A stretch of 64,000 nt of DNA from assembly GCA_949287835.1 (NCBI GenBank), contig CASEHV010000037.1, positions 1-64,000 on the forward strand. Direction: 5' to 3'. A model generated the notes under the pieces. The model was not told where the DNA came from and made no database searches. It saw only the letters and a program-made list of their open reading frames with translations. Positions 5,317 through 45,385 of this stretch are shown one piece after another. A program made the position numbers and the translations under genes. Position 1 is the first letter of the stretch. Each line of letters begins with the position of its first letter. This stretch comes from an uncultured Helicobacter sp. GTDB lineage: Bacteria; Campylobacterota; Campylobacteria; Campylobacterales; Helicobacteraceae.

Positions 5317-5640
5317 GTCATGTTGAGTGAAACGAAGAATCTTGACATATATCTAGATTCTTCATATTCATTCAGAATGACATAAGTCGTCATGTTGAGG
5401 GTGTAAGCCCGAAACATCTTTAGATTCTAAACAGAATCTAGATTCTTCGGCAAAGTCTCAGAATGACGTAAATGTCATGTTGAGGGCAATAACAAAAACA
5501 TCTTTTTGGAATCTAGATTCTATAAGTTTGTGTCATTCTGAACGAATGTGAAGAATCTAAAAGCACAGAATCTAAATATGTTTCACTTCGCTAACATGAT
5601 GTTCTCTGTCATTCTGAGATGAAATCGAAGAATCTAGATT
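5317..5640. repeat. Cluster of eight dispersed-repeat units (two families, both orientations)
   Basis: Family A reads approximately TCTAGATTCTTCGG-N-CTCAGAATGAC: 5351-5381 and 5435-5467 forward, 5532-5558 and 5608-5640 reverse. Family B reads approximately GTCATGTTGAG-N-CGAAACATCTT: 5317-5347, 5389-5421 and 5474-5505 forward, 5578-5600 reverse. The left half is forward and the right half reverse, so the whole cluster can fold back on itself. It fills the space between convergent dusB and the chemoreceptor gene, where it might terminate transcription from both sides. Copies of both families also lie inside the magIII coding sequence, and a family A copy in obgE. Confidence 0.85.
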
Positions 5641-44065: not shown

Positions 44066-45385
44066 ATGTTAAAAGATGAATTATTGCATGAGGGCATTAG
44101 CGATGGCTTTACTCTGCTTTGCTTTTTAAAAAGGCATTTTCATCTAGGAGATGCTAATAGCTGGTGGTGGCCTAGCTTTCTTTCTAAAGAAGTGAGAAAT
44201 GGTGTGGAGATAGAGGGTAGTACTCATGAGGTAAGTGGCTTGTATTTCGTGATAGCCTCCATTTTGGGACAGAATACAAAATATGAAAATAGTTTTCATG
44301 CTATTAAAAGTTTGTATGAGTTTTTGTATGTAAGGCTTGAGGGTGATTTGGATTCTAAAAGAGATTTTTCGCCTTTGACTTGGAATGACAAGTGTGAAAA
44401 CATAATGTGGAATCTAGATTCTTCGGCTACGCCTCAGAATGACAATAATGACGTCATATTGAAGTTTGCTAAAACATCTTTAGATTCCAAAATAGAATCT
44501 ACTATTAAAGATTCCAATAGCACTCCCCCCGACCCCCTCCCGCAAGGTGAGGGGGAGACTTTTCCAACAAGTAAATGGGAATCTAAAAACAAACTACGTC
44601 ATGTTGAGCGTAAGCGAAACATTTCTTCTGTCATGTTGAGTGAATGCGAAACATCTATCAAATGCAAAACTTTTTTAAAAAAGGATTCTCAAACAATACA
44701 GAATCTAGATTCCAAAAAAGATTCTTCGGCAGAGCCTCAGAATGACGGTAATGTTGTTATTCAAGATGACAACAAACGTCATGTTGAGCGTAAGCGAAAC
44801 ATCTTAAAGTTGGATTCAGAAAAAAACATGGAATCTAATAAAAGTCAGAATCTAGATTCTCAAAAAATCTCACTTGATGAAGTAAAAAATCTTGCGTATC
44901 CAAAACTTGCATTGATTTCTACAACGAGATTTCAAAATAAAATATTAGAAATTCTTAGCAATGAAAATCTACATTTGATTTCAGAAATTATTGGAAAAGC
45001 TGGATTCCATAATCAAAAAGCTTTGCGAATACAAATGATATGTAGAAATATCCTAAAAGATTTTGGTAATTTTGAAACATTTTATGATGAGGTAAGTAAA
45101 GAATGGTTGCTTTCTCAAAAAGGTATAGGAAATGAGAGTGCCTCTAGCATATTAAATTATGCTCTAAGGCGCGAGGAGATGGTCGTAGATAGCTATACGC
45201 ACAGGCTTTTGTGCTACATCGGCTATGAGTTTGAAAACTATGAAGATATGCAGACTTTTTTATGTAATAATTTAGAGAGGGCAGCAGATTTGTATGACTT
45301 TGAGATTCCATTGTCGCAAATCATGGCAAGACTGCATGGCAAAATCGTGGAATTTAGCAAAATCGCAAAGCTAAAAAGGCTATGA
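44066..45385 (+). CDS. magIII: MagIII-type 3-methyladenine DNA glycosylase with a repeat-derived insertion
   Basis: A 439-residue HhH-GPD glycosylase, about twice the length of H. pylori MagIII (about 218). The N-terminal part is NSWWWPSFLS and FVIASILGQNTKYEN. The helix-hairpin-helix is LLSQKGIGNESASSIL and the catalytic-Asp loop is MVVDSYTHRLLCYIG. The two halves are separated by a hydrophilic block of about 175 residues (95-269). That block contains two copies of repeat family A (DSSATPQND, DSSAEPQND), three of family B (RHVERKRN twice and VMLSECET in another frame) and a PLPQGEGE unit. The flanking enzyme looks intact, so the block is probably an extruded loop. The enzyme removes 3-methyladenine. 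Confidence 0.85.
   Translation: MLKDELLHEGISDGFTLLCFLKRHFHLGDANSWWWPSFLSKEVRNGVEIEGSTHEVSGLYFVIASILGQNTKYENSFHAIKSLYEFLYVRLEGDLDSKRDFSPLTWNDKCENIMWNLDSSATPQNDNNDVILKFAKTSLDSKIESTIKDSNSTPPDPLPQGEGETFPTSKWESKNKLRHVERKRNISSVMLSECETSIKCKTFLKKDSQTIQNLDSKKDSSAEPQNDGNVVIQDDNKRHVERKRNILKLDSEKNMESNKSQNLDSQKISLDEVKNLAYPKLALISTTRFQNKILEILSNENLHLISEIIGKAGFHNQKALRIQMICRNILKDFGNFETFYDEVSKEWLLSQKGIGNESASSILNYALRREEMVVDSYTHRLLCYIGYEFENYEDMQTFLCNNLERAADLYDFEIPLSQIMARLHGKIVEFSKIAKLKRL
44411..44800 (+). repeat. In-frame dispersed-repeat copies inside magIII
   Basis: Family A copies lie at 44411-44443 and 44702-44746, and family B copies at 44597-44620, 44630-44655 and 44777-44800. A C/G-rich unit reading CCCCCTCCCGCAAGGTGAGG lies within 44519-44562. 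The A and B copies are near-identical to intergenic units at 5317-5640 but are read here as protein. One B copy is in a different frame from the other two, which shows that the repeats arrived as DNA and were not selected as peptides. Confidence 0.85.

Follow-up and report, generated by a model that had tools for sequence, protein, structure and literature searches.

How does a gene for a predicted DNA repair enzyme come to carry 175 extra codons, built in large part from repeats, in the middle of its reading frame? This question is raised by the magIII gene of a Helicobacter species with a 1.72-Mb draft genome in 37 contigs, with H. aurati, H. bilis and H. trogontum among the other members of its genus. 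The gene lies in the window, i.e. the whole 64,000-nucleotide stretch of DNA analysed here, which is part of contig G000:C37. A preliminary description of the window had proposed that two families of repeats, otherwise located between genes, were inserted into magIII in frame and tolerated without selection for the peptide.

The magIII gene and its inserted block

The gene can be divided as follows.

44066-45385, forward strand: magIII, putative 3-methyladenine DNA glycosylase, 439 aa including the block (Pfam HhH-GPD; phmmer to 1pu6/1pu7/1pu8, E=1e-35; Foldseek to 1pu7, E=2.6e-11)
44066-44347, forward strand: MagIII N-terminal half, aa 1-94, WWWP motif retained (alignment with 18 relatives, pLDDT)
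44348-44872, forward strand: in-frame repeat block, aa 95-269, missing from same-genus relatives with full-length magIII (comparison, pLDDT, RNA fold)
44873-45385, forward strand: MagIII C-terminal half with HhH (KGIGNES) and Asp375/Lys426, equivalent to 150/205 of 1pu6 (alignment, chain alignment, pLDDT)

Positions 44066-45385 form one uninterrupted ORF of 439 aa, in which residues 95-269 are exactly 44348-44872. An alignment with 18 relatives places the 175 extra residues in the linker between ...LYEFLY and YPKLALIS.... All 13 other genomes of the genus contain a MagIII match without the block. In 12 of these the match is full length, with about 270-297 aa from stop to stop and a linker of about 25 residues at the block site; the remaining genome (G011, 87% completeness) yielded the C-terminal half only. 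The MagIII matches and the alignment revealed no block in more distant Campylobacterota either. The occurrence in distant Campylobacterota that would have refuted the preliminary description was not observed, and these comparisons bear out the view that the block is absent from normal MagIII and that repeat DNA was inserted in frame. Two relatives from the H. bilis group also have what look like the remains of a second magIII copy, namely short pieces of its C-terminal part that contain stops (G003:C20:39639-39782 and G006:C1:1408651-1408776).

Identity to the 12 full-length relatives is about 47-59% in the N-terminal half and about 51-61% in the C-terminal half, and the flanking halves retain their key motifs, as had been proposed: WWWP, KGIGNES, D375 and K426. 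The last two align with residues 150 and 205 of H. pylori MagIII (phmmer alignment to chain 1pu6), the catalytic Asp and the active-site Lys, and both are invariant or nearly so in the alignment of relatives. With an HhH motif, Asp and Lys at the MagIII positions and a predicted fold that matches 1pu7, the protein has the features of an HhH-GPD glycosylase and is a putative MagIII enzyme. It shares the fold of H. pylori MagIII (PDB 1PU6/1PU7/1PU8), which has 218 aa.

The predicted structure separates the block from its host. In the AlphaFold model (12 sequences) the halves mostly exceed a pLDDT of 85, whereas residues 99-265 mostly score 30-50. Per ten-residue block, the N-terminal half scores 81-96 up to residue 90 and 65 for residues 91-100, and the C-terminal half 86-98 from residue 271, with 68 in the last block. 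The helices drawn inside the block are without confidence. Modelling is therefore consistent with the extruded loop suggested before: the block, about 175 residues long and hydrophilic, is probably a disordered loop that protrudes between two glycosylase halves that are still predicted to fold.

The following repeat units and spacers were located in the block, together with one noncoding array of the window for comparison.

44362-44389, reverse strand: decayed A-type unit (RDFSPLTWND); AB HMM E=2e-4 within the block
44409-44421, no strand: tail spacer palindrome GAATCTAGATTC, read NLDS, a conserved spacer between A and B tails
44416-44443, reverse strand: A-type CGTC-REP unit (LDSSATPQND); HMM E=5.5e-7 (298 kb searched); fold of 5 bp, a 2x2 internal step and 3 bp
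44452-44478, forward strand: very decayed B-type unit (DVILKFAKTSLDS); AB HMM E=0.09, weak
44523-44556, forward strand: C-type hairpin unit CCCCCTCCCGCAAGGTGAGGGGG (TPPDPLPQGEGE); HMM E=6e-9, 9 copies in 298 kb; hairpin of -18.3 kcal/mol
44597-44622, forward strand: B-type unit B1, frame RHVERKRNI; iterated HMM, fold
44630-44656, forward strand: B-type unit B2, frame VMLSECETS(I); iterated HMM, fold
44700-44712, no strand: tail spacer palindrome GAATCTAGATTC
44719-44747, reverse strand: A-type unit (KDSSAEPQND); iterated HMM, fold
44777-44804, forward strand: B-type unit B3, frame RHVERKRNI; iterated HMM, fold
44847-44859, no strand: tail spacer palindrome GAATCTAGATTC
5317-5635, no strand: five A/B units between convergent genes, noncoding comparison within the window; HMM

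Much of the insert consists of repeat units and spacers, and the NLDS motif of the protein is the translated tail spacer. All five copies named in the preliminary description were recovered by the iterated HMM, with E-values of 3e-5 to 6e-8 in the 298 kb searched. The block is not a product of chance, because it has 93 further partial matches in its own genome at E <= 0.001, folds as RNA with z=-5.8 (none of 100 shuffles was equally good) and, at the stop density of the intergenic copies, 175 codons would remain open with p ~2e-5.

Structure of the repeat units and their known relatives

That the block is built of repeats has therefore held up, in both its units and its spacers; the division into two families has not, and is replaced by one covarying hairpin family, accompanied by the third hairpin C and the two decayed units. 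Judging from sequence, A and B represent a single hairpin, GTCAT-NN-TGA-stem-loop-stem-GAA-N'N'-ATCT, in two variants of opposite orientation, since the reverse complement of family A aligns with family B, the units share a parse, their stems covary and further stem alleles occur in relatives.

An HMM built from the five named copies, when iterated, collected 204 units in 298 kb of the own genome, a sample that was chosen for similarity to the block and from which only near-consensus copies were collected. The pattern TCAT-NN-T-GA-inner-GA-A-N'N'-AT parses 199 of the 204. In 86-89% of copies NN pairs with N'N' (TC/GA in A, GT/AC in B), the GA/GA step is present in 181 of the 199 units and the inner 2-4 bp vary with compensation. 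Across 55 distinct 28-nt units we counted 46 double-change cells against a shuffled mean of 15.3 (0 of 500 shuffles), and cells are paired in 92% of cases compared with 28-49% for slid partners. Related genomes carry the outer stem alleles AC/GT, TT/AA, AT/AT and CC/GG beside TC/GA and GT/AC. Inverted A/B heterodimers make up 91 of 126 neighbouring pairs (within 200 nt), and the spacer of tail-to-tail A/B pairs is often a 20-nt sequence such as TTAGAATCTAGATTCTGCAA.

The closest known system is the superfamily of CGTC-tagged REPs, which the A/B units fit. The tag of these REPs is CGTC or TGTC, their stem has 8-9 bp and begins with AT, and their loop measures 4-5 nt; they form opposite-orientation dimers, often heterodimers, include intragenic units and have no dedicated transposase; most, not all, have a CCA 3' tail, and the larger clusters code for 43-82 aa, with truB as a recurrent host (Di Nocera et al. 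2013, PMC3733652). The Helicobacter units share the tag (consensus (C/T)GTCAT in the 199 units that parse, among near-consensus copies only), the AT-first stem, the short loop, the inverted heterodimers, the intragenic location, the truB host and the lack of a dedicated transposase, as far as the Y1 family (PF01797) is concerned. They deviate in that a tandem G.A step interrupts the stem, leaving 5 bp starting with AT and a further 2-4 bp (7-9 standard pairs). Their loops are mostly GTA, AAA, GAA, GGTA, GTAA and GTTAA (3-5 nt), of which the 3-nt loops deviate slightly, and their tail is CT(T) rather than CCA, which is a deviation at the level of the family and not an exclusion. Furthermore, grouped arrays are common in Helicobacter rather than rare, 70% of units in our census are inside ORFs, and blocks reach about 255 aa in contrast to the reported 43-82 aa.

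The preliminary description had seen the Rickettsia palindromic elements (RPEs) as a parallel to the block but not as the same thing. This distinction is not supported, as R. conorii RPE-4 and RPE-6, like dRS3 of Neisseria, belong to the CGTC-tagged REPs (PMC3733652) and our units have most features of that superfamily. The mode of insertion is also alike, with palindromic repeats in frame in unrelated, otherwise intact genes, truB included. RPEs are described as single elements of about 150 bp (PMC10969869); compared with the RPE-1 type, by description only, the Helicobacter repeats are units of about 28 nt, form mosaics of several families and give inserts of up to about 255 aa.

Two further systems are worth comparing. 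The REP/BIME and REPIN/RAYT elements of E. coli also have two hairpin variants alternating in opposite orientation, conserved spacers and a mosaic of the BIME type. That said, the Helicobacter tag is CGTC and not GTAG, the units are mostly intragenic, and a search of the source genome with PF01797 (Y1_Tnp) gave no match, so neither the tag nor the RAYT gene of this class is present and mobilisation by a RAYT was rejected. The sole Y1 transposase match in the genus (G010:C21:11342-11671) has an internal stop. The coding palindromes of Nematomorpha mitochondrial genes are described as long perfect inverted repeats, of up to 284 bp, and pose a similar conflict between DNA structure and protein in coding sequence (PMC6649704); the Helicobacter repeats are dispersed REP mosaics instead. 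The kind of element is thus known, both as CGTC-type REPs and as in-frame coding palindromes; its scale in Helicobacter is unusual. PMC3733652 does not mention Helicobacter in its text, and our literature search found no report of REP-like intragenic repeats in this genus, which is not proof of novelty.

Host genes, reading frame and orientation

A search of the own and related genomes with a strict pattern found 242 exact units in the source genome, and the reversed control pattern found none; with diverged units the total may, by extrapolation, be about 350. By exact units the source genome ranks first both in the family (121 genomes) and in the phylum sample (397 genomes). The distribution is patchy, with such units in 42 of the 121 family genomes. 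The repeats are not otherwise intergenic, as had been supposed: of the 100 exact units counted on contigs C1-C14, 70 lie within ORFs, in 26 genes, as a raw count. This census read all 100 listed units of these contigs, up to 5 kb before the end of C14, with an ORF threshold of >=150 aa; membership was decided by length, and by named family for about 38 hosts.

These hosts, named by NCBIfam across all fetched loci, show that the same type of block recurs in dozens of core genes. They include cysS, murJ, waaA, ispDF, recG, priA, recJ, carB, ppc, pgi, truB, nadD and cysN, as well as two nuoG, dnaX (C-terminal part), nusB (C-terminal tail), hypF, pseF and copA; some fall under the curated NCBIfam cut-off, as expected for interrupted proteins. 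The clearest case is the tRNA synthetase CysS, which has a single locus in the source genome and 734 aa, against open frames of 485-558 aa in relatives. The relatives' CysS align only to residues 1-347 and 592-734, which leaves about 245-255 extra residues. The CysS sequence preserves its KMSKS and HIGH-type (HLGH) motifs. In several relatives the second CysS match includes one stop, which we read as the gene's own end because the match reaches the last residues.

The pattern extends to H. bilis (G002), where 32 of 53 units of the same kind are inside ORFs. In this H. bilis group genome DNA polymerase I (L110:683-3988) has 1102 aa against a profile of 889 positions, with an in-frame repeat block of about 200 residues; DNA polymerase I is also among the known REP-decorated proteins (PMC3733652). 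The idea that intergenic clusters are broken genes was rejected, as no obvious split gene was found at nine clusters inspected with their neighbouring ORFs.

Some loci have further peculiarities. A carboxynorspermidine synthase-like ORF of 884 aa (L118:2694-5345; G000:C2, about 90-93 kb) has a GNAT acetyltransferase segment mid-protein. It also carries, at about aa 205-310 and 700-810, a pair of nearly identical repeat blocks, whose peptides (RHSERSEES, KDVS..QHD) are in the style of the reverse orientation. At L054:4619-6820, L072:9885-12770 and G000:C37:108191-108682 there is a longer repeat, also dispersed, with the reading GLQ..RGEH.TPPISEKSGGFFGVRGSG.GEQPFFAPKEEN; it is common to the cysS block and a NuoF/GltD-like protein, and is another mobile segment within the mosaics. 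At L057:4616-7102 PseG and PseH are apparently fused in an 829-aa ORF with repeat blocks at several places.

Is the peptide itself under selection? The intergenic arrays hold 6.07 stops per 100 nt over three frames, equal in either orientation, and at this density 255 codons would stay open with a probability of 1e-7. The intergenic copies are stop-rich and the genic copies open, which implies a translational filter. Of the 66 genic B units among the sequences retrieved, 61 are read in a single tail frame; stops in the standard spacer could explain much of this preference. As first described, one B copy of magIII is read in a different frame from the others: B1 and B3 have the rare frame (RHVERKRNI) and B2 reads VMLSECETSI.

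In the C1-C14 census 20 genes have one orientation and 4 the other, with two mixed (55 to 15 units). This excess has p = 0.0015 against one half and about 0.013 against an expectation of 0.6. A much stronger bias, of 121 to 2 units, was discarded since that sample was seeded with the magIII block; the census shows a moderate bias only. Stop codons were also rejected as the sole cause, given that forward and reverse stop densities are equal in the intergenic arrays, and are not a full explanation. The orientation excess, being somewhat above the stop-codon effect, hints at an extra constraint outside the selfish model.

The loop-encoded residues vary (VMLSGSETS, VMLSDSETS, VMLSVSETS; DSSPLAQND, DSSLNAQND, DSSAEPQND), and hairpin integrity is equal within and outside genes. 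For these reasons selection would appear to act, at least partly, on the nucleic acid rather than the peptide: hairpins are kept and peptides drift, and the frames nevertheless stay open. The proposed absence of selection for the peptide survives in this part; the single tail frame of most genic B units and the shared orientation of 20 of the 24 single-orientation genes count against it.

Origin of the block and alternative explanations

We consider it probable that transposase-less REP mosaics spread as selfish DNA in this genome and survive in genes only where they are read through as extruded loops. The magIII block would be an island of REP-type palindromic DNA, composed of A/B inverted heterodimers, a C-type hairpin and palindromic spacers, that entered the gene after the source Helicobacter lineage had separated from the sequenced relatives and then expanded within it as a mosaic. 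The elements are probably non-autonomous; ectopic recombination or another enzyme has to be assumed as the mover, because no IS200/RAYT-type transposase is present. Insertions would hit genes and spacers alike, and those in genes would persist only if their length preserves the frame, the strand and frame are free of stops and the site tolerates an exposed loop. Translation would then run through the block, in frame with MagIII, and expose it as a disordered loop. The twin blocks of the 884-aa ORF and the long repeat common to the cysS block and the NuoF/GltD-like protein show copying of blocks, or of their parts, between sites; recombination is a possible route.

Could the insert be harmless because it never reaches the mature protein? 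Removal by RNA splicing, by translational bypassing (known from phage T4 gene 60 and from the byps of yeast mitochondria) or by protein splicing would spare even essential single-copy genes such as cysS the effects of hairpin-rich inserts. A skipped insert, however, could contain stops and be of any length. Dozens of blocks nevertheless keep the host frame open, where intergenic copies of the same repeats are full of stops, and we regard removal as quite improbable. Decay of magIII, i.e. a dispensable repair gene inactivated by the insertion with stops still to come, would agree with the decayed units of the block, and MagIII is not known as an essential protein. It is nonetheless an unlikely explanation, as both halves match intact relatives in conservation and retain the invariant residues, and the same type of block is found in the generally essential genes cysS, carB, murJ and nadD.

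It is also unlikely that the inserts are functional, with disordered, hydrophilic repeat peptides or mRNA hairpins that regulate or localise their hosts and are kept by selection. The predominance of one orientation and of one tail frame speaks for such a role; against it, the loop-encoded residues vary whereas the DNA hairpin covaries, the hosts are functionally unrelated, the magIII and cysS genes of relatives have no block, and the hairpins are as intact outside genes as within. An artefact of assembly or annotation might be suspected in a draft of 37 contigs, where repeats are prone to mis-assembly, but the magIII block lies in the interior of a 150-kb contig and similar blocks are found in more than 30 genes and in independently assembled H. 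bilis records, which makes an artefact extremely improbable.

The spread of selfish mosaics thus remains our preferred reading, and it could be extended. Transposase-less REP mosaics in a Helicobacter clade may be a standing mechanism of protein expansion, in which genes are entered about as readily as spacers and long disordered translated loops are present in a few percent of proteins, essential enzymes included, with a gene-relative orientation preference and by way of some mobilising process. We offer this extension tentatively and hold it to be possible, if rather doubtful.

By definition REPs lie outside genes, and coding palindromes that stay in frame are best known from Rickettsia, at a small scale. 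One practical consequence concerns annotation: DSSPLAQND, RHVERSETS and similar common segments come from repeats read in frame and are not a sign of homology. Dozens of core genes with up to about 255 REP-encoded residues are natural replicates, with known sites and clean homologues, that can be used to study the tolerance of proteins for selfish insertions, the neutrality of disordered loops and the movers of transposase-less REPs.
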